Source: Pomphorhynchus laevis (Eukaryota > Acanthocephala > Palaeacanthocephala > Echinorhynchida > Pomphorhynchidae). Taken from it: DNA of 64,000 bases. Positions within the stretch are counted from its first letter, which is position 1; each line of letters begins with the position of its first letter. A program made the translations under genes and the position numbers. This document shows, piece after piece, positions 4,179 through 59,214 of this stretch. The notes below the pieces were generated by a model. The model searched no databases and had not been told where the DNA came from. It worked only from the letters and a program-made list of their open reading frames with translations. The stretch spans positions 124,001 through 188,000 of the forward strand of contig WNNJ02001507.1 in the NCBI GenBank assembly GCA_012934845.2, given 5' to 3'.

Positions 4179-4588
4179 TCTTTATTTTTAAATAAAGATA
4201 ATATATCAAATGTTATTAAAAATAATATTTAATATCTTCATATATTAATATATATTTATTTTATCAAATACATGGTATTTTATCTATTAGTGGGTTCATA
4301 AATCGCTGAGTTATTACATTTCTTTTTAAGGATTGAGATATTTATATTTGTTTAAATTTTTTTGAATACAAAATATACATTCTAAATATATAATATAAAT
4401 ATAATATATTTATATATTATATAAATATATACGAACATCAAAAGATTGGTGTTTTTCACCGGCACGAAATCAAACCTCTAATATATATATGTTATATTAT
4501 ATATAATGATTTAGATGCTCGGTAGTTCCGCTTTTCGAGCTTTGAACACTTGTTAAGGTGCTTATGGATGATAATTGTTGTCACGGTA

Positions 4589-4618
4589 CTGATGAGCTCT
4601 GTCAGAGCGAAACGCGTT
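4589..4618 (+). ncRNA. Hammerhead ribozyme motif, minimal type
   Basis: CTGATGA (4589-4595), stem II GCTC (4596-4599) with GAGC (4605-4608) around loop TGTCA, GAAA (4609-4612), then the palindrome ACGCGT (4612-4617) followed by T. This matches the minimal hammerhead in which a self-complementary ACGCGU makes stem III between two RNAs. Stem I could form between CACG (4582-4585) and CGTG (about 4622-4625) across a 3x3 internal loop. The H17 position is U, weaker than the common C. The + strand around it has no recognisable ORF, so it is probably a leftover Penelope-like terminal repeat. Confidence 0.6.
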
Positions 4619-4639
4619 CGGCGTGGTTAAAGTTTGGGT

Positions 4640-6260
4640 CGTTCTTTAGGAACCACGCATTTAGCGTGTCATATTAATGTGATAGAATGTGTATACTCGA
4701 CTACGTCCACCCTGCAAGCTTTTTTTCATGCTAATGAGGTGTACAAAATTAAAAATTTTAAGTTTTTATTCGCTGAATCTATTTCACTGTTAGTAACCTT
4801 CACGCTGTATGCCGTCAATCGATGACATATACTTTTTATTACAAACTAGAACTAGAACACTTATCCTTTTTTCTGGATCTTTTAGTCAATTATTTCTTTG
4901 GGAATACATTTGTATAAAGTTAACCCTTTTATTAAATATGGCTGCGATATTATTTGTATAATACAGTGCACTGACCTTTCAAAACGGAGCGAGCGATGTG
5001 AACGTAAGAGGCAATGGGGATAAAAATTAAATAATGAAACTTATTATTACAAAGCATATAATAATCGCGCAGTGAAAGACTTTATTTGCTTTAAATAATT
5101 AACATAATTGAATGTAATTTAGGTTGTATAATGCAGGGCACTAACTGGTAACGGAGCGAGTGAAGTGAACCCCATATTTACAAACTAAAAATTTGTTGTT
5201 TTGACTTCCTCCCTTGGAAGCAGACATGTATAGTTTCTTATCTGCTACATATTTCGTGTAGCTGATTACGAAGTATATCGATCCTATTTTTACCAATTCG
5301 TTATACTTAATACTAGCCAGACATTATAATACACCATTGACCAATGCAATTTTAGAAATTTGTTCTAAATTTAAAATAATTAAAAATCTTAACACTGGTT
5401 TAAATTTTAAAGGAGGCTGACGACTAAGAAACAACGAGATATAATTCTCTATAGCTCTAAAATTAATCGGTAAGTAGCGAGCACATTCTGTTTTTCGAGA
5501 GATTAGTAAGATAGTCAGTTCGCTGAATCAGAAAATAAATGACAAAAATTATAAATTTTTACATTTAAGTTGTTATTATTGTTACACAGCTTTATCCAAA
5601 ATGACTGTTTTGTCCGCTCACAAAATTGTAACATTCAAATTAACACAAATTTCAAAGAAAACGTTGGCAGTTTTCGTTTATAATAGAAAAACCTTGAATT
5701 GCGAACTTAAATTGGTTTAGTTCAGATCTATCTACTTCATATGGAGTAGCCAGTAAGCCTCGAGTAATGACCATGTGATGATTTTATGGTGTCCTGGAAT
5801 GACCCCTCTGAGACTGCCATTTAAGTTTATGTTTTTTGAGGGGTACCCCTCGTGGTTTTGTGACCATGTACCACATTGCTGTTATATCTAATGAAACAGG
5901 CTAGCGCAGATACTCTTAAGAATTGACTACCTGTCCCAATAATTATGTCAATACAATTTCAGACAATTTACTACATCACCTAAAAATCTTAATGAAGATT
6001 AATATTTTTATCTAATTAGATTAAGATTAAATTAATTAGATTAGATTAATCTATAGGATTAAGATTTTGCTTAATCTTATAGCATTTTTCGAGCTTTGGT
6101 AACGCATCTATCTGACCTGCTCTTGTCTTGAGACTACGTTTCCATACAATTCTAGATGTCAATACAATTCATTTTACATAATGACAGTAATCCGATACGG
6201 TGCCTATTCCGAATTTGCGGAGACTCAAGATTGCGTAAACAGCCATTCATGCTAAAACGT
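4640..6260. other. AT-rich spacer with a short direct repeat
   Basis: No gene recognised. A block containing GGAGCGAG followed by GTGAAC occurs at about 4955-5005 and again at 5127-5172, each next to a TATAATRCAG sequence and GGCACTAAC or TGCACTGACC, suggesting two small related insertions. The rest is unremarkable. Confidence 0.45.
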
Positions 6261-49300: not shown

Positions 49301-52300
49301 AGTTTTTAATAATGTAATATAAGCCTCAAGAATTTTTTTATTTAAACAATTGGTTTCTTTTGCTAAAACAACAGTATTATTATAGTCAATATTGTGATCT
49401 AAATTTAAACTATGGTCGCACTACTGAGGCCCTTTTTGAGTGTGTACTTGTGTTGTTTTAATCTAGTCTCTAATGGTTAACATGTTTGACTCACATAAAT
49501 TTTATGGCATCCTAAACAAGAAATTTATAAGCAACTCCATCATTATCATATTTGGTTTTCTTTTTCAAAATGTTCTGTAACTTCGGTATTTTACTATTAT
49601 TCAAAACAATATTTGAAGTATTTAATGTTTTATTGTTTAAAACAAATCTTTTGAAATTAATAATCAAAAATTATCTATAAATGGTAATCCTATGTATTTC
49701 TTTTCTCTTTCTGGTCTAAAAGCAACGTATTTACGAGTTTTGGTACTTTAGTAAAAAGCCTTTTTAATTAACTATGATGGTAAACCGTTTTTATTTAATA
49801 GAATTATAATTATCTTGTTATTTACTTCAAGTTCATTTAAATTGGTAACAATCATTTTAATCCGTTAAAACAAAGAATTGGCAGCAGATATTTTCCAAGA
49901 TGTTGAGACATTGGTATTCCACGAAACAATATTTAAATTATTTGAATTTTTATAATAAACGGATGTTTTTAAAATATCATTTGATGTTCTACTAACGACG
50001 ACATCTAAAAATGTTAATCTATAATCTAATTCTAATTCTATTGTCCACTGAATATTTCCATCAAAACAATTTATTGCTCTTAATATGTCCTGTATATCAA
50101 TTGTGTACTCACAAATAGCAAACTTATCATCGACATATCCAATCCACATAACAATTCCATCCATCTTAGTGATATTTAATTTCTAATTTCTCAGATATAA
50201 TTCACTAAGAAGGAGTGCTAGAGGATTTCCTATTGCGAACCCATCATTTTGCTCGTATACTTCTGCATTAAATATTTAAATATTCTTATTCTAATTCTAT
50301 CGTCCACTGAATATTTTCATCAATATACTTTTATTTAATTTTTCTAGTAATTTTAATTATTATTTTTTATATTTTATTTATTTATTTTTAAATTATTTAT
50401 TTTGAATGGAAATATTATGGTTATAATTTATGTTGTGTTTCTAAACTATTTTGAATCATCCTTTTTTATTGCTTCTTGTGTACCTTTAAAACTTGTCGAA
50501 ATCGTGTCACAACAATTCAAACAACACTGAAAGTAGCTGTTTATCGCTAATAACATCACACCCGCTCAAAGAAAATGGCAGCGATCGTTTTGAACTTTTT
50601 TATATTATGCTAACAGAGGTTAGCATAATATCAAATAAAATTTTCCTCCATCTTTGATCCAGCTCCAATAATACTTTATTAATAATCGATCATTATCAAA
50701 TAGTTAAAATATATTTCTATACATAAATATAGAACATAAATATTTTAATTACAACATAAATAATTAATAATTAATATGCTTTCCCTATCCCCTTATCCCA
50801 TCTACCACTCCTCCTCTTATTGCTTCGTCTTTGGTAAAAGCAAATATAATCTGCATAAAATATGAATATAAATTGAAGATTTTTATTGAGTCTCCTTATG
50901 CCTTTTCCGGAGATAATAAAATTATAATGCAAAAAATTTTTTTAGAAAAAATTTAATCGGGCAATTTCGGTCTTTGTGTAAAAATTAAAGTTAATTATCG
51001 AATTTTTATTTTTAAATATATAAAGGCAACACCGATGTAATTAAATAATTGAACGTACGTGATTCAAATGCTACAATTATATAAATTGAATAGACTAAAA
51101 TCCGTACGTTTATTAATCGTGCACATAAATAATCAAAGTAAATCTTACTGCCTGTATTAGAAAAATGACAATCATTGCATTGAATATTGAGCCGTCAATT
51201 TAATGGTCTTTTGTATTAATTGTAAAATCTTTCCGTCAGCGAAATGATATCACGATAAGTATATTTATCATGATAAGTGAGTGTATTTTAGTTTAAAAAT
51301 TTAGTTATTTGTTTTATTTCATATGGATATTATGGATATTAATGTAGAGTTCAAAATAATGTTTAAACTAGAACTCCAGCGTATTAATTTAACTATAACT
51401 CAAGCTTATCACGTGGATATTAATTTTATGTTCTCTTAATCTAAACTGTTCACCAACAAACAATTAATAAATCAAAGCACAAGTAAGTATAAATGACGAG
51501 ATTTACGTTCATTTATCGTAAATTCATTACAGTTTATTTTCATGACATTTATTTCAATTTACCTATTCGATGTTTTCTAGAATGCATAATGTTGACCGAA
51601 GACGAGATATGACTTTTAACAAAATGTTACGCTCCAACCAGAAATATTTAAGTCCAGGTTTTGATTGGAAATTAATCGCTCTCTGTAAAATTAATATGAG
51701 TTCAGAATCGCTAATAAAGAAATCATTGTTGATGAATATAAAAAAGTAAGATGAAGCAAGTTAGAAAGTTACTATTGTTTATTATTTTAGTGAAGTGATT
51801 AATGATGTAGAAAAAGCAGCAAATATTCGTTCAATGCAAGATCTGGAATCAGCCAATAATTTGTAAGCGTTTTTACGATAATCATCAAAGCTATTTTCTG
51901 GTCAGCAAAATATAAAAATAAAAGAATTCTTTTGAAATTATAAAATTAATTAATTTTAAATATTAATTGAATTATAAATATTTTTAATATTTAAATTACA
52001 TTTATTAAGATCATGTCTAGCTATAGTTTGACATACTTGTGCCGTCTGCCTGTACTCCTCTGCATTTAGTAGTGAGATGAGTCAAAACAATGACGAATTT
52101 GTTTTGTCGATTCTTTCGTTGATGATAAATTAACTGATGATAAATTACTTCATGCGGAATTATCTCATTGCTCTTAAATGACAGTATTCAGTATTAGATT
52201 GGCAATTAAAGAGACGGTGTTATTCGTTAGATTCGCATATCGAATTAACTCCTTTAGATTAACACTTTCCACTGTGGCTCTCCTTTGAGCCACACTCCAT

Positions 52301-55300: not shown

Positions 55301-57532
55301 GATAAATCGTTTTGATAATTGTGAGCAACACGTCTTGGCAAAACAGCATAGGATACATACATTATGTTATTTACTACAATAATATATATATTGAAAATCA
55401 TAACTTTTACAGATCGTAGACTGATACAATACTGTCTTTCCTGAATCAGCATCTACAATTCTTTCATATTTTGCTTCTTTATACGTTTTCATTCAATATT
55501 TGAGTATCCGAACAAAATATTCCTTATGTCATCTTCAAAATTCCTCAACGCAGTTTTCCGTAGACCACCTCGCGGCGCTTCAATTATGAATTCGCTTTCG
55601 ACAGTAGAGGTATTTAAGGAATTGTATCGTTTACTATGCGAAGTGCTGGCTTAGATACCTTTGCCTGATATTTTTGATTTTACAATTGATAGGTGTTTTC
55701 GAACCGCATCTTTTGTACACCATATCGTTTGTGTGGATTTATCTTTAAAACGTTTAACAGCTAATTGTTTCTATTATTTTCTTTAATGTGACTTTTGAAG
55801 GTCATCATTCCGAGCAGTGTAGTAGCACTGGGAGCACTATTAAGTAATAAATTTTTGGTTGTAGTGATATATTTTTATTTGGATTCAGGAGACTGAAAGT
55901 TGCAGTAGCCTTTGAAATCCAGTTCATCACTTTTGTGCCACCGATACAGATGTTGGATATCGCAGTACCTAAGTAGTTAAATGTGCGAACATTTTCAATC
56001 ACCTTGTAGTCCTTAATCTTGCATTATTGATGACATATAGACAGTACGAGACACTAAGATCTTTAAAAAACACAACATCCTCGTTAAAAATTCAGTAATT
56101 CAAAATAATTGACAGATAGCATGACGACTTAAGCTGTATAAAGCCACCTTGAAATCCAGGAACGCAAAAATAGTTGGCTAACGAAATTTCAAAATCAATT
56201 CCATTAAGAGATATGTTATGCGAATATCTGATATACGCATTCCCTTTGTGATTAAAATTTAGCCTGGCATTGCCTTAGATGAGTTTCTCTGGATGGACTT
56301 ATACACCATTGAGTGTCCCAGGGCAGGTGTAACAACAAATTATATATAAACAAGAAAGAAATATAATATTATATATTATATATAATTTATATATATCACT
56401 ATGAAGAGGCATATATATACCCCTTCACGAGGAAAACATAGTGATTTATAAATATAAATTATATATATTCAGAGATGCTGACTCAAATATATAATAGTAT
56501 GTCATGGATGTGCTGAGTATATAACGGTCCAGGATTTCTTACGAAATACGGCATTTATACTAAATGGTGTTGCTTGATAGACTGGACTTCGATTCACGAC
56601 TTTCAGTCACCATGTCACTTCTAGACGACCACTTCAGCATCAAAATGATGAGTACCCGGCAACACTCATCAGTAGAATGAGGTACACACTGGTCGTTTCG
56701 GTTGCCTGTGTGACATTGTGAATAAAGGCGTTTCCGACACTTTGCTTAATTGTCTGAGGCTTACGCTCTTAACCAGATCGAATTGCTGTGCGGACCATCC
56801 TTAAACACTAGGCAAAGATTGTTGCTGAATTGTCACTGCACTCGTTGGATCCTAAATGGATACGGCAGGTATAATAGTAGTGCACGGATGTGCTGAGTAA
56901 ACAACGGTCCAGGATTTCTTACGAAATACGGCATTTATACTAAATGGTGTTGCTTGATAGACTGGACTTCGATTCACGACTTTCAGTCACCATGTCACTT
57001 CTAAACGACCACTTCAGCATCGAAATGATGAGTACCCGGCAACACTCATCAGTAGAATGAGGCTTAATTGTCTGAGGCGTAAGCCTCAGACAATTAAGCA
57101 AAGTGTCGGAAACGCCTTTATTCACAATGTCACACAGGCAACCGAACGACCAGTGTGTACATCATTCTACTGATGAATGCTGCCGGGTACTCATCATTTA
57201 GATGTTGAAGTGGTCGTCTAGAAGTGACATGGTGACTGAAAGTCGTGAATCGAAGTCTAGTCTATCAAGCAACACCATTTAGTATAAATGCCGTATTTCG
57301 TAAGAAATCCTGGACCGTTGTTTACTCAGCACATCCGTGCACTACTATTATATATATTGTAAGTATAAATTATAATCAATTTATAAACAAAAATATTTAA
57401 TAGCTTTAACACACAATGTTTGTGAAAATTGTGTGTTAAAATGGCGAAATTGTGAAAATTGTGAAAATGGCGAAACGTAAATTGAAGAAGTAATCTTTGT
57501 TTTTTGTTGGTAGAGACCAATAATCATATTTC

Positions 57533-57602
<70 letters not shown>

Positions 57603-59214
57603 GGATGTGTTAAACTGTGCTCCGGGAGCTAATAAGCTTCAGTTTCATAATTGTAGATGTTGCCAAAAACCGGAGTTCGATTACAAGTAGAGCAGACTTC
57701 CTTATCACTCCTAGACGAGCTGATGGTAGCCGGCAGCACTCATCAGTAGGGTGAACTACCATCAGTCGTTTCGGCTGCCTTGTGATATATTAAATAGGCA
57801 TTTCCGACAATTTGCTAACGTGGTAGTATGTGCCTAGCCTCTCTAAACTAACCATGTGTTTTCTGGACTATCCTAATCTTATTCGGCAGGAATTTTACTT
57901 GCTGTTGTTCTTGATTTCTCACAGAATCCTTTGGAGGATACATTTTTATAATTTTTGTATCTGACTGGGTTAAGCTGTTCTCTGGGATTTATTAAAATTC
58001 AGATTTAAAATCGTAAATATTGCCAAAAATCGGAGTTCGATTACAAGTAGAGCAGACTTTCTTATCACTCCTAGACAAGCTGATGGTAGCCGGCAGCACT
58101 CACCAGTAGGGTGAACTACCATCAGTCGTTTTGGCTGACTTGTGATATATTAACTAGGCATTTCCGAGAATTTGCTAACGTGGTAGCACCTTATCACTCC
58201 TAGACGAGCTTATGGTAGCCAGCAGCACTCATCAGTAGGGTGAGCTACCATCAGTCGTTTCGGCTGCTTTGTGATATATTAACTAGGCATTTCCGAGAAT
58301 TTGCTAACGTGGTAGCAAATTGTATCCTCCAAAGGATCCTGTGAGAAAGCAAGAACGACAGCGAGTAAAATTCCTGCCGAATAAGATTAAAATGGTCCGG
58401 AAAGCACATTCTATTTACAAGTGTTGATGCAAAAAATATATCTTAAAATGTAGAAGGTAGATACCAAAGAATAATAACTATTTAATTATTTAAATATCAT
58501 TTTCTTAAAGCAAATATTAACAAATCATTTTTTTTGTAAAAATTAACATTTTAAATATTTTATCTTGCAAAGGTGTGCCTATAGGAAGGACAACGACAGT
58601 GCCTTAAAATTTTATCAACGAGTGCTTGATTATGACAAAAATTTCCAGACTGCGATTGATGGAATTGACAAGATTAAACGATCGGTCAGAAATGAACGAA
58701 CAATTTGTTGTTGATATGACTACAGAGATTTAGATCGAGAAGAAATTAGAAATTTTCGACCACACTCCTGCACTACCTAGACAAATAAGAACGAATGAAA
58801 CAAATGATTCATGCTCTTTTAACAGGTGTTTTTTCAATTATTAATTTCGATTAAAATTAATTGTTTTTAGTGATACGACGAGTACGGAATCTTGCCAGTC
58901 ATCACAGTGAGCTGAATGCTTGATATCATATTTTTACGTAAACGTTGACATTTAGATCGTCAAGTTCAAGTGAATGCAGTATTTCGTGTTCATCATCATC
59001 TTCAAATGAAGATAAACATTCACAACGATTGAAAGGTATGAAATTCGATAAACAGTATAAGCTTGAAAAAATGGACGTTACTTCATCGACGAATCGCAAA
59101 AAGGCTAATCATGGAAGTTCAAGGACAGTGTTAAAGCGAAATAAACAGCACTGCGACAAGATAGATTCGAATATTGTTGATTTTTTTCATCGTTTGAAGA
59201 ATAGAAAAAGATGA
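31800..59214 (+). CDS. TTC14: TTC14-like protein, 14 exons, 533 aa
   Basis: Exons: 31800-31945, 39617-39806, 40698-40820, 44749-44806, 46817-46884, 46952-46989, 51581-51745, 51791-51862, 52653-52772, 54363-54485, 58573-58684, 58734-58825, 58871-58906, 58956-59214 (stop TGA). Every intron is GT-AG, all phases join, and the sum is 1602 nt. The N-terminus MDDKQLNELVESNSSALL aligns with the start of vertebrate TTC14. Residues about 113-195 form an S1-like nucleic-acid-binding domain (NDVVYCEITNISSKGALVRL, NEGDLIKAKIVNI). 196-262 match the TTC14 linker (VENLPLFFR, NQKYLSPG). TPRs lie near 287-320 (YAKGMNFFQTN), 321-354 (RGAMQANKHNFKEAL) and 369-402 (DSALKFYQRVLDYD). The tail has an SSSSSECSISCSSSSSNEDK run and ends DFFHRLKNRKR. 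TTC14 is a poorly characterised, probably nuclear RNA-associated protein. Intron sizes run from 45 nt to 7.7 kb; intron growth is partly due to mobile elements. The start is the first ATG and matches the family. Confidence 0.87.
32115..32540 (+). pseudogene. LINE RT fingers and palm start
   Basis: 142 codons from the truncation point. Carries RT motifs 1-3 and motif A with its Asp (SLDLSSAFNIVDHS). The frame is lost at the GGGTCCCACAAGG motif-B site, where one base is missing relative to PQGSVLG. The catalytic YADD is in the next frame. No longer able to make a complete RT. Confidence 0.75.
32115..33530 (+). mobile_element. L2-like LINE, 3' half, in TTC14-like intron 1
   Basis: RT from the fingers to the 3' end: YRSISLLPTLSKLLERLM, FQSAFCSNHST, SLDLSSAFNIVDHS, WFASYLSDRF, then after a one-base deletion PQGSVLGPLLF (32510-32560), YADDLIYAH (32615), and a thumb/C-terminal region open at 32759-33187. 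The 3' UTR ends with hairpin GCGTGC-GCTG-GCACGC (33474-33489) and a TAAAATAAAT tail. 5'-truncated at about 32110. Better preserved than copy A of the same family. Confidence 0.85.
33531..34285. other. Intron 1 spacer
   Basis: No gene recognised. 33535-33650 has a short antisense-free fragment similar to LINE copy A around 1640-1740 (NNNPYDYSSFLKTKVS, compare NPHDYSLFLQTKLS), so a further small L2-like piece. Confidence 0.5.
34342..35077 (-). pseudogene. LINE RT fragments (copy H)
   Basis: Two open pieces. 34823-35077 holds the pre-RT and fingers region (SPFLLKTLPNFLAPCLAKIF). 34342-34590 holds WIRYFLHNRFFRVRVGGYLS, the motif-B remnant VHQGTAFGPLLFIIF and, frame-shifted, the catalytic loop. 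The palm between them (34600-34820), including motif A, is recognisable only as short broken pieces. Confidence 0.65.
35283..35576 (-). pseudogene. LINE endonuclease C-terminal part (copy H)
   Basis: 97 codons: MEDFNLPRSNWSEYVF corresponds to the GDFN motif (Gly changed to Glu), then FDLIFSKRVNDVV and the terminal GSSDHCVLSLP with catalytic SDH. The N-terminal half with VFCITESWL is in another frame at about 35900. Confidence 0.7.
36091..37503 (-). repeat. 204-bp tandem array, 7 copies, from LINE ORF1
   Basis: TTTGTTTCACCGTTAG recurs at 36091, 36295, 36499, 36703, 36907, 37111 and 37315: exact period 204. Copies differ at only a few positions. On the - strand each unit encodes the CR1 ORF1 C-terminal module (HARILLRCGYRLKG, YRILRDLPLEERLELKEA, GETNLCIQN). 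The period is 68 codons, but TAA and TAG stops and a frameshift recur in every unit, so it is not a growing protein. Confidence 0.93.
37761..39616. other. Rest of TTC14-like intron 1
   Basis: 37761-38060 may hold further decayed ORF1 of copy H. The remainder is AT-rich with nothing recognised. Confidence 0.4.
39905..39996 (+). repeat. 31-32 bp tandem repeat in intron 2
   Basis: TTCGGGTTGTT recurs at 39908, 39940 and 39971, each followed by a TAATTWTG(C/T)TCTT block: three copies. Confidence 0.75.
41571..41692. repeat. Hairpin with perfect 27-bp arms
   Basis: 41571-41597 (CCCTTTCCTCCCCTCCGCTT and on) is the exact reverse complement of 41666-41692. The inner part also pairs partly (GACCTCGACAATTGGGA with TCCCAAATTGTTG). 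GC-rich in an AT-rich intron. May be a small foldback element or a pre-miRNA-like stem. Confidence 0.85.
42004..42588 (-). pseudogene. Merlin / ISXO2-like transposase, internally deleted
   Basis: 194 codons. An N-terminal zinc-ribbon-like segment begins upstream of the ATG (CCHKHL) and continues with YWRCQKSKCF and VRKGTWFEGARL. The catalytic domain starts with IVGIDETVFARRKYNRR (first Asp) and QQWVFGGVCRETSKVFLFAV, then CILPGSLIHSE and HTQQIESTWNQVK (third catalytic Glu). Between IHSE and GIHTQ the usual 30-40 residues, including the second Asp and the conserved His/Asn-His region, are missing. Therefore it is not a functional DDE enzyme. Family: ISXO2-like/IS1595 domain, Merlin superfamily in animals. 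Confidence 0.8.
42950..43562. repeat. Direct repeats and AT-rich tract
   Basis: 42952-43085 and 43427-43562 are diverged direct copies (AGGGTAATATT, TTTTCGAGATATTTTGAAATA, then GAAATTTAAATA and TTTTAAATGATTACAATTAC). A shorter third copy starts near 43168. Between them 43240-43400 is TATA-rich. Confidence 0.65.
44190..44435 (-). pseudogene. Lys/Arg-rich coding-like island, unrecognised
   Basis: A GC-richer block in AT-rich intron 3. One - strand frame reads RLRDKPRRKTKRRIYSMKW and INKLREMRL before two stops. A +1 frame carries on as YNDRPRSSRKRTSTINKTHM and GKRGLRNKAEQTLKKKE. This suggests a single-frameshift remnant of a basic protein. I do not recognise the family. It could instead be a structured RNA or chance. 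Confidence 0.3.
45240..46370. repeat. Intronic direct repeats and a 40-bp LINE scrap
   Basis: ATCAATCAGCTGTCCAATTT with flanks occurs at 45446-45490 and 45746-45785. Another pair, 45290-45420 and 46210-46360, shares GAAAATCRCCATTTGTGAAA. 45519-45557 is an antisense scrap of the L2-like RT (complement of 32430-32467). Confidence 0.6.
46990..48000. other. TTC14-like intron 6, left part
   Basis: AT-rich. Has short repeats of CCTATTAATAAATAGGTAATA at 47285-47390. No gene recognised. Confidence 0.4.
48024..48557 (+). pseudogene. Unrecognised frameshifted ORF
   Basis: A less AT-rich block. One + frame reads from 48141 (GLMLKPKILYASGCWDDPMI, DHIDLFMYFRKCC) to about 48365. A second + frame continues GITTLDVRAESGIEWIFGD and VELFEVIVYVNN to a stop at 48557 (TYFGNSEL). 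The - strand also has long open frames over the same bases, so strand is uncertain. Looks like a decayed single-exon insert within intron 6. No family recognised. Confidence 0.3.
48858..48889 (-). ncRNA. Decayed hammerhead-like motif in PLE arm
   Basis: On the - strand: GTGAAGA (C3 changed to G), stem II GCTA with TAGC, GAAA, TATC. Same layout as 4097-4128 but the core is mutated. Confidence 0.4.
49247..49298. repeat. (AT)n microsatellite
   Basis: 52 bp of uninterrupted AT dinucleotide within the Penelope-like element. Confidence 0.97.
49865..50265 (-). pseudogene. Penelope-like reverse transcriptase, C-terminal part
   Basis: Upstream of an in-frame TAG near 50185 it reads YEQNDGFAIGNPLALLLSELYL, the AMGSPLSP-type motif of Penelope RTs. 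After it come MWIGYVDDKFAIC (catalytic YVDD), INCFDGNIQWTIELE, LTFLDVVVSRTSND and LKTSVYYK. These are diagnostic of Penelope-like elements, which are distinct from LINEs. The N-terminal RT motifs are missing and there is a stop, so it is inactive. The ATG at 50164 is internal. Confidence 0.82.
50704..51580. other. TTC14-like intron 6, right part
   Basis: AT-rich, no gene recognised. Confidence 0.4.
52395..52440. repeat. Perfect 21-bp inverted repeat, 4-nt loop
   Basis: 52395-52415 (TTTCCTATTTGTCTACTCTT plus A) is the exact complement of 52420-52440, loop TCTT. A wider, weaker pairing of GACAGTATTCAGTATTA (52181-52197) with TAATACTGAATACTGTC (52353-52369) lies to the left. In intron 8. Confidence 0.9.
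52773..54362. other. TTC14-like intron 9
   Basis: No gene recognised. 52890-53120 is less AT-rich with some short words (CTCCGACAGCATTAAACG) but no open frame of note. Confidence 0.4.
55430..56330 (-). mobile_element. RTE-like LINE reverse transcriptase fragment
   Basis: On the - strand 55805-56002 reads VRTFNYLGTAISN, VMNWISKATATFSLL, PKIYYLIVLPVLLHCSE: the post-palm YLG / RI.KA...F / LP.LLYG.E signature of RTE-type LINEs. Upstream (56100-56330) motif A remains as FLDFKVALYS in a broken frame. No complete ORF. Lies in intron 10. Confidence 0.65.
56612..56716 (-). ncRNA. Hammerhead-core RNA element, family 2, intact
   Basis: On the - strand: GAAAC (56699-56695), CTGATGA (56672-56666), GTC (56626-56624). 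Stem II GGCAAC with GTTGCC, stem III CGACCA with TGGTCG, stem I TTCTA with TAGAA, closing helix ATGTCAC with GTGACAT. Segment order is GAAA, CUGAUGA, GUC, unlike standard hammerheads. Confidence 0.5.
57127..57230 (+). ncRNA. Hammerhead-core element, family 2, inverted and decayed
   Basis: Same layout on the + strand. GAAAC is reduced to GAAC, and stem II (GGCAAC with GCTGCC) has a mismatch. CTGATGA and GTC are kept, and so is the closing helix. Confidence 0.4.
57534..57600. repeat. (AT)n microsatellite
   Basis: 67 bp of AT dinucleotide. Confidence 0.97.
57703..57787 (-). ncRNA. Hammerhead-core RNA element, family 1, copy 1, intact
   Basis: On the - strand: GAAAC (57772-57768), CTGATGA (57746-57740), GTC (57716-57714). 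Stem II GGCAGC with GCTGCC, stem III CGACTGATGGTAG with CTACCATCAG(C)TCG (13 bp, one bulge), stem I CCTA with TAGG (extendable), closing helix TATCAC with GTGATA. Confidence 0.55.
58063..58147 (-). ncRNA. Hammerhead-core element, family 1, copy 2, decayed
   Basis: Core changed to CTGGTGA and AAAAC, with GTC kept. Stem III still pairs through a G-U. Confidence 0.4.
58192..58276 (-). ncRNA. Hammerhead-core RNA element, family 1, copy 3, intact
   Basis: Core intact: GAAAC (58261-58257), CTGATGA (58235-58229), GTC (58205-58203). Stem II is AGCAGC with GCTGCT, a G-C to A-U compensatory change relative to copy 1. Stem III has one mismatch (CTACCATAAG). Confidence 0.55.

Follow-up and report, generated by a model that had tools for sequence, protein, structure and literature searches.

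Candidate type-GCS hammerhead ribozymes on small retrozyme-like elements in the genome of the acanthocephalan Pomphorhynchus laevis

A group of repeats in the genome of Pomphorhynchus laevis carries the conserved blocks of the hammerhead ribozyme in an order that cannot be reached by cyclic permutation of the classical one, which raises the question of whether these repeats are hammerheads at all and, if so, of which kind. Hammerheads consist of three blocks, C (CUGANGA), G (GAAA) and S (the cleavage site), which can be arranged in six orders (Eckert et al. 2023, PMC10085705). Types I, II and III correspond to CGS, GSC and SCG, respectively; of the remaining orders, SGC is reported from 583 sequences, CSG from 2 and GCS from one bacterial sequence (PMC10085705). 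The latter, GCS-1 from Caballeronia peredens, cleaves in vitro, albeit slowly (0.014 per min), shows no covariation, and its biological relevance is called unclear by the authors (PMC10085705). A helix that ties stems I and II together is stated in the same paper for SGC and CSG and merely suggested for GCS. The repeats described here are very probably non-circular type-GCS hammerheads residing on small retrozyme-like elements, with cleavage predicted from their sequence.

The window, that is, the whole stretch of 64 kb that was analysed, harbors three units on the minus strand (57703-57787, 58192-58276 and 56612-56716). A preliminary description of this DNA had claimed all three, and they are found letter for letter; its pairs for stems I, II and III are the same as those read in the minus-strand sequence, and its linear order of GAAA, CUGAUGA and GUC is borne out by a descriptor scan, which returns all three units as GCS. 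The descriptor fixes the cores and the stem registers, with 4 pairs in stem I, 1+4 pairs in stem II (at most one unpaired base) and 4 pairs in stem III, and covers spans of up to 150 in all six block orders. Its matches in the window are exactly the three named units for GCS, plus one CGS match at 4579-4703. The same descriptor finds 2 GCS matches in 150 dinucleotide shuffles (0.013 per window) and 10 matches of any order, by which a chance origin of the three GCS units is rejected. An already annotated RNA is rejected as well, with an Rfam scan of the window at the gathering score giving no match and a scan of 56300-58500 at E<=5 giving no hammerhead family.

Stem II of the units contains an unpaired U that separates a first pair, which we take to be G10.1-C11.1 in the usual hammerhead numbering, from a part of 6 bp. 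Stem III of unit 57703-57787 extends beyond a bulged C by 10 further pairs, 9 of which are present in unit 58192-58276. The features of the window are as follows.

57703..57787, minus strand: putative type-GCS hammerhead unit, family 1, core intact (sequence and descriptor)
57769..57772, minus strand: block G, GAAA, of unit 57703 (sequence)
57774-57779, minus strand: 5' strand of stem II, GGCAGC, with C11.1 at 57773 (sequence, unit 57703)
57740..57746, minus strand: block C, CTGATGA, of unit 57703 (sequence)
57747-57750, minus strand: stem I strand CCTA of unit 57703, with stem II strand GCTGCC at 57732-57737 and the unpaired U at 57738
57714..57716, minus strand: block S, GTC, of unit 57703 (sequence), with stem I strand TAGG at 57710-57713
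57714/57713, minus strand: cleavage predicted between these two positions, by analogy with the published type (PMC10085705)
57756..57765, minus strand: 5' strand of P4, or distal stem III, CTGATGGTAG, with its partner CTACCATCAG at 57720-57729 and the bulged C at 57719
57782..57787, minus strand: closing helix P0 of unit 57703, TATCAC, paired with GTGATA at 57703-57708
58192..58276, minus strand: putative type-GCS unit, family 1, core intact, stem II AGCAGC/GCTGCT
56612..56716, minus strand: putative type-GCS unit, long form of family 2, core intact, cleavage predicted between 56624 and 56623
58063..58146, minus strand: decayed fourth copy of the family 1 unit (AAAA for GAAA, CTGGTGA for CTGATGA)
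56992..57062, minus strand: family 2 unit with its 5' end cut off, without block G
57127..57230, plus strand: family 2 unit, decayed in blocks G and C
56490..57352: family 2 element, a minus-strand array (56490-57062) head to head with a plus-strand array (57077-57352)
57577..58409: family 1 element, a minus-strand array (57577-58315) head to head with a plus-strand piece (58317-58409)

The long inverted repeats of the window are these head-to-head array pairs. Both 3' ends of the family 2 element lie at the junction TATTATA/TAT, and the minus array of the family 1 element runs into (TA)n. Folded as single units, the three family 1 units are more stable than their shuffles (z of -2.2 to -2.4), whereas unit 56612 is not (z = -0.68). 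Stems I and II are absent from the minimum free energy folds of single units, which is expected for pseudoknots and provides no support either. A further block, which reads AGCAAAnTGTCGGAAAnGCC on the ribozyme strand, is located 10-40 bases upstream of the ribozyme, at 56726-56746, 57796-57816, 58156-58176 and 58285-58305 of the window (plus-strand positions). Families 1 and 2 share it as a conserved stretch, and it can be recognised by eye in families 3 and 5; it may represent an extra contact, a promoter or a signal for reverse transcription.

The preliminary description had proposed a search of the genome for more copies. Patterns were searched in all 249,390,268 bases, and about the first hundred places per pattern were read. 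The family 2 pattern has 1,517 matches (704+813) and the family 1 pattern 994 (575+419), with no match to either reversed pattern. A pattern with a base other than A before CTGATGAG and a base other than T after GTC gives 869 matches (451+418; reversed pattern 46+41 = 87), and one with A before CTGATGAG, T after GTC and next bases unlike those of families 1 and 2 gives 339 (175+164; reversed pattern 0); the two patterns revealed two new high-copy families. A search for CTGAVGAG resulted in 101 matches (control 29), a number that is not a count of units, as some units entered twice, once per GTC; it comprises two small new families and many variants of the others. When one unit was compared with the genome by DNA similarity, using a method that skips very common words, 0 matches were returned. 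Among the places read there are thus four large and two small families, listed here with their helices.

Family 1 (window unit 57703): P0 TATCAC/GTGATA, stem II GGCAGC/GCTGCC, stem III ACGA/TCGT, P4 CTGATGGTAG/CTACCATCAG, stem I TAGG/CCTA
Family 2 (window unit 56612): P0 ATGTCAC/GTGACAT, stem II GGCAAC/GTTGCC, stem III ACGACCA/TGGTCGT, P4 GTACC/GGTAC (short form AGTAC/GTACT), stem I TAGAA/TTCTA
Family 3: P0 weak (GATA/TATC), stem II GGGTC/GACCC, stem III ACG/CGT, P4 GTCTGGGT/ACCCAGAC, stem I CTGCTG/CAGCAG
Family 4: P0 GCATGCT/AGCATGC, stem II GGGAC/GTCCC, stem III ACAAC/GTTGT, P4 ACAGAG/CTCTGT, stem I TGGAC/GTCCA
Family 5 (six copies): P0 GTCAC/GTGAC, stem II GGCAGC/GCTGCC, stem III ACGTCA/TGACGT, P4 GAGATG/CATCTC, stem I TAGTA/TACTA
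Family 6 (two copies): P0 TATCAC/GTGATA, stem II AGCAGT/ACTGCT, stem III ACG/CGT, P4 TTACCAC/GTGGTAA, stem I TCGGA/TCCGA

The block order is G-C-S in all six families. Stem I differs in each of the six and stem II in five, and both are fully paired everywhere in the register that the core sets. The registers of P0 and P4 were chosen by eye, family by family, with P0 of family 3 being weak. The patterns for families 3 to 6 fixed core letters only, among them the first pair of stem II and the first two pairs of stem III; the pattern with 339 matches (family 4) also fixed the first pair of stem I, leaving the remaining pairs free. The three intact window units have the CUGANGA/GAAA/NUH core, and the core columns are near-invariant over the 69 sequences aligned below, an invariance that is partly built in since the rows were chosen by core-containing patterns.

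We also note relatives of these families. At three loci (L064, L065 and L066), family 3 has diverged relatives in which the cleavage site is GUA or shifted and some of the stem sequence has changed; in L065 and L066 paired double changes in stem II are kept. A 24-bp tandem repeat on contig C2085 (46299-46503) consists solely of the module formed by hammerhead block C, stem II and block G (CTGAAGAGTCCCGTAAGGACGAAA), which gives the impression that just the catalytic half was amplified.

The covariation set comprises 69 of 126 distinct rows, namely the complete families 1, 3 and 4 (19, 15 and 15 rows) and 20 of the 77 rows of family 2, with families 5 and 6 left out. Of its 1,587 cells, 89.2% are paired, compared to 62.3 +/- 0.9% with reshuffled partners and 34-45% with partners slid by 1-3 columns. 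Cells that differ from the commonest pair on both sides number 466 (162 +/- 12 in shuffles), and the covariation score is 0.705 (0.225 shuffled); none of 500 shuffles reaches the observed value in any of these three measures. Two coarser measures for the same 69 rows, pairs with any both-side change (19 of 23, shuffled mean 19.0) and further pair types (58, compared to 61.3 shuffled), show no excess. For P0, 82.3% of the cells in this set are paired; in family 4, it is 69 of 75 cells, compared to 7% in a register one base off. The support for stem III comes mostly from shared letters, with changes in its third and fourth pairs.

In a comparison across all six families, each strand is confronted with the partners of its own and of the other families. 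With own partners, stem I forms 24 of 24 pairs, stem II (not counting the fixed pair) 28 of 28, stem III 23 of 24, P4 30 of 30 and P0 29 of 30; the corresponding numbers for other-family partners are 74 of 120, 87 of 132, 98 of 120, 55 of 150 and 79 of 150. Full pairing is attained with own versus other-family partners in 6/6 versus 2/30 cases for stem I, 6/6 versus 7/30 for stem II, 5/6 versus 10/30 for stem III, 6/6 versus 0/30 for P4 and 5/6 versus 8/30 for P0. Within families, only 6 double changes in stems I and II occur among 236 units, 3 of them paired; the covariation therefore lies between families and represents a small number of independent events for each helix. Between families 1 and 2, the monomers are 70-78% identical in the ribozyme and about 45 bases upstream of it and about 45% identical elsewhere, with a shuffled baseline of 31%. 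Taken as evidence from sequence, this makes a strong case for a type-GCS hammerhead that is kept paired across families.

When read as a nested structure, each unit is a single hairpin in which P0, an internal loop, stem III, P4 and a terminal loop follow one another. On its 5' side, the internal loop has one strand of stem II and GAAA, and on its 3' side GUC and one strand of stem I; the terminal loop holds the complementary strand of stem I, CUGAUGA and the complementary strand of stem II, and P0 connects stems I and II at their outer strands. The terminal loop would dock into the internal loop, either that of its own unit or that of a neighbouring identical unit, and such docking would build a normal hammerhead core that is cut after GUC. 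This agrees with the preliminary description, which had proposed either a pseudoknotted hammerhead-like fold or one formed between units, given the non-cyclic order: the order matches the published type GCS (PMC10085705), and the families keep its pairs.

Whether the core is formed within one unit or between two is a separate matter. In families 3 and 4, the joint between stem III and P4 has 9-10 nt and 6/3 nt unpaired, respectively, which would let a single unit fold back on itself and speaks against a need for a second unit, as does the published GCS-1, which was cut during transcription of a single-unit construct (PMC10085705). Stem III and P4 run almost without a break over 14-15 bp in family 1 and in short-form family 2, so that docking within a unit would, on geometric grounds, be hard without opening P4, and a second identical unit is more easily imagined as the docking partner. 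A ribozyme formed between units would have block C, in the terminal loop of one unit, dock into G and S of another (a neighbour or a second identical one); it would restrict catalysis to multimers or dimers and leave monomer circles intact. Within tandem transcripts, combining block C of one unit with G and S of the following one would restore the classical order. Near-identical units are indeed 258-399 nt apart in tandem arrays, and in the genome's classical type-I family stem III is palindromic and has no loop (ACACGTGT). A stem III of this kind needs a dimer. Dimeric hammerheads are also described for amphibian retrozymes (PMC7229834). The preliminary description preferred pairing inside one unit, or between identical RNAs, on the strength of a single compensated change; among 56 adjacent non-identical pairs of units, own partners fit better in 1, swapped partners in 3, and both equally in 52, which favours neither fold. 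That the active ribozyme forms only between units is possible, though somewhat less likely than not.

A more far-reaching idea, which we consider rather doubtful, is that the permuted hammerheads are partner-dependent by design, that some families later came to cut alone, and that the genome holds an evolutionary series. If so, CUGAUGA in the hairpin loop of its own stem III would be usable solely on another unit, multimeric transcripts would cut themselves while monomer circles stay whole, other families would have gained solo cutting by a longer joint between stem III and P4, and the series would lead from dimeric classical (CGS) over trans-acting GCS to cis-acting GCS hammerheads in one genome.

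The units reside in tandem repeats with monomers of 360 bp (family 1), 380 bp (family 2), 399 bp (family 3) and 258 bp (family 4). The 3' ends of family 2 arrays were collected on the ribozyme strand from 61 loci (L001-L061) and the window, with identical junctions merged and cross-matches to family 1 dropped. Of the 64 distinct ends, 34 fall on two positions of the monomer, 134 (22 ends) and 71 (12 ends), and the other 30 on positions with at most 2 ends each. The only two TATA sites of the family 2 monomer end at 134 and 68, so that the recurrent 3' ends are at or 3 bases past these sites, and 18 of the 22 ends at position 134 continue into flanking TATA. The 5' ends of family 2 arrays are scattered; the 3' ends of family 3 are AT-rich and do not coincide with its TATA sites. 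A set of 72 loci (10 overlapping loci left out) contains 109 arrays that are 120 bp or longer, with 16 head-to-head and 2 tail-to-tail pairs, a count that is not a random sample since several loci were fetched for showing both strands. In L024, L028, L029, L062, L063, L069 and others, as well as in both elements of the window, the arrays meet 5' to 5' with their 3' ends outward, often in TA-rich sequence, an arrangement suggestive of reverse transcription that started at both sides of a single break. No target-site duplication is seen by eye in the few flanks compared, in which (TA)n would obscure such duplications.

This anatomy of the arrays supports a retrozyme-like context well, as far as sequence can tell. 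Multimeric transcripts of the tandem arrays would be cut into monomers, which would become circular and then template target-primed reverse transcription at TA-rich sites, sometimes primed from both sides of a break. Target-primed reverse transcription would give tandem arrays, scattered 5' ends and 3' ends at TATA for about half of the family 2 arrays. An unusually stable circular fold of the monomers is rejected for families 1 and 2 (z of -0.15 to -0.67 on either strand, 60 shuffles each), and by this measure the monomers are not viroid-like rods.

Two further explanations deny the ribozyme a role. One holds that the units are a feature of the DNA alone, palindromic hairpins of foldback repeats in which the hammerhead motifs are accidental or dead relics. 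The elements are often arranged head to head (16 pairs), stem III with P4 is a plain hairpin, and many copies are decayed, for example 58063-58146 in the window; yet stems I and II cross this hairpin and have no reason to pair in a DNA palindrome, and they are paired in six families. With the core letters, in addition, near-invariant while the stems change (in part a result of how the rows were chosen) and a chance expectation of 0.013 per window, this explanation is highly improbable. The other holds that the permuted hammerheads are real but belong to satellite DNA that is spread by recombination, with no part for self-cleavage. It would fit contig C1034, on which family 4 matches are spaced by multiples of about 258 bp over some 85 kb. 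Against it, the short arrays, with 5' ends that scatter and 3' ends that recur in TA-rich flanks, resemble the outcome of reverse transcription, and no part of the monomer is better conserved between families 1 and 2 than the ribozyme; we regard this explanation as quite unlikely. Type-GCS hammerheads on retrozyme-like elements remain the preferred reading.

Like GCS-1, the units have the linear order GAAA, CUGANGA, cleavage site, with stems I, II and III pseudoknotted (PMC10085705). In contrast to the single bacterial sequence, there are six animal families with thousands of pattern matches and covariation between families, and P0, P4 and tandem elements of mobile appearance are found here, with the comparison to GCS-1 being one by description, not by sequence. 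The units share with SGC and CSG hammerheads the non-circular, pseudoknotted arrangement and a helix joining stems I and II, here P0 and perhaps P4, but differ from both in block order (PMC10085705). SGC is reported from metatranscriptomes beside hairpin ribozymes, and the text of that paper drawn on here describes no retroelement context for it. Classical types I-III are set apart by their cyclic C-G-S order, which does not occur in the six families. As in metazoan retrozymes, which are small tandem repeats (150-450 bp) with one hammerhead each, families 1-4 have one unit per small monomer, and the spread proposed above matches the life cycle proposed for those elements (PMC7229834). Metazoan retrozymes are further characterised by the lack of an LTR, a primer binding site and a polypurine tract, by monomer RNA in linear and circular form, and by a target-site duplication in some cases. 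Metazoan retrozymes, however, carry type-I (CGS) hammerheads (Cervera and de la Pena 2020, PMC7229834), whereas the present ones are GCS, and for this reason we call the elements retrozyme-like and do not file them as metazoan retrozymes.

Before, GCS was the only one of the six orders without covariation support, its single example being called doubtful by the 2023 paper (PMC10085705). New are the occurrence of this order in a single animal genome, with pattern matches in the thousands and six sequence families, the compensatory differences between families in every helix, and the recurrent extra helix. If confirmed, non-circular RNA permutations would be a working solution in animal mobile elements, dozens of natural variants would be at hand for studies of structure and kinetics, and a ribozyme that is active in multimers and quiet in circles could be tested directly. 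An HSP70 encoded in the genome analysed here is 100% identical to a Pomphorhynchus laevis protein over 652 aa. The published draft genome of P. laevis has ca. 260 Mb with about 63% repeats, and the main text of that paper mentions neither ribozymes nor Penelope (PMC7310846). A search of the literature, with subscription journals and preprints mostly outside its scope and hence weak as evidence, found, judging by titles, no report of an acanthocephalan hammerhead, and one paper on type-GCS hammerheads; for non-circular permutations of the hammerhead from 2023 on, it added two papers that by title concern structure-alignment tools.

With respect to other sequences in these loci, family 3 monomers in L062 (600-690) contain a tRNA-like stretch upstream of the ribozyme, with words (CAGCTTAGTGGATG and GAGTTCAAATCC) that by eye resemble A-box and B-box; the stretch is a possible pol III promoter. 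A tRNA gene is rejected, as ARAGORN reports 0 genes in L015, L062, L063, L067 and L069. A 99-aa frame of the window (49865-50164, minus strand; YVDD.. LTFLDVVVSR) has no Pfam match and presumably resembles a Penelope-like reverse transcriptase. Eight other frames of the window match Pfam families of reverse transcriptase, protease, integrase, RNase H, endonuclease or transposase, and the best match of the window reverse transcriptase is at 58%.

The genome also contains classical hammerheads. Matches to RF00163 (type I) number at least 65, 62 of them above the cut-off, a lower bound given that 73 of 40,608 candidates were scored; there are none in 14 control genomes. These matches are often found in tandem repeats of about 296 bp with alternating strands (L086-L089, contigs C2913 and C1798, and others), so that permuted and classical hammerheads coexist in this genome within repeats of a similar kind. 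The unit in L086 has a palindromic, loopless stem III (ACACGTGT), which suggests a dimeric ribozyme. Searched for in the CSG order, the genome has 36 matches (control 2), many of which look by eye like family 2 units or like classical cores whose loop II is long; CSG is rejected for six of the recurring loci, all of which read by eye as classical CGS. The hammerhead-like sequences in L100-L105, in the classical CGS order, belong to at least two further kinds, with stem III ACGCC/GGCGT and stem I CCACA/TGTGG, by eye, in L103 and L104. The window itself includes a decayed piece resembling a classical hammerhead (4487-4635, plus strand; CTGATGAGCTCTGTCAGAGCGAAACGCG..), which is 73% identical to part of L089, where the unit of this kind reads GGTACTGATGAGCTCCGTTAGAGCGAAACGCGTATACC.
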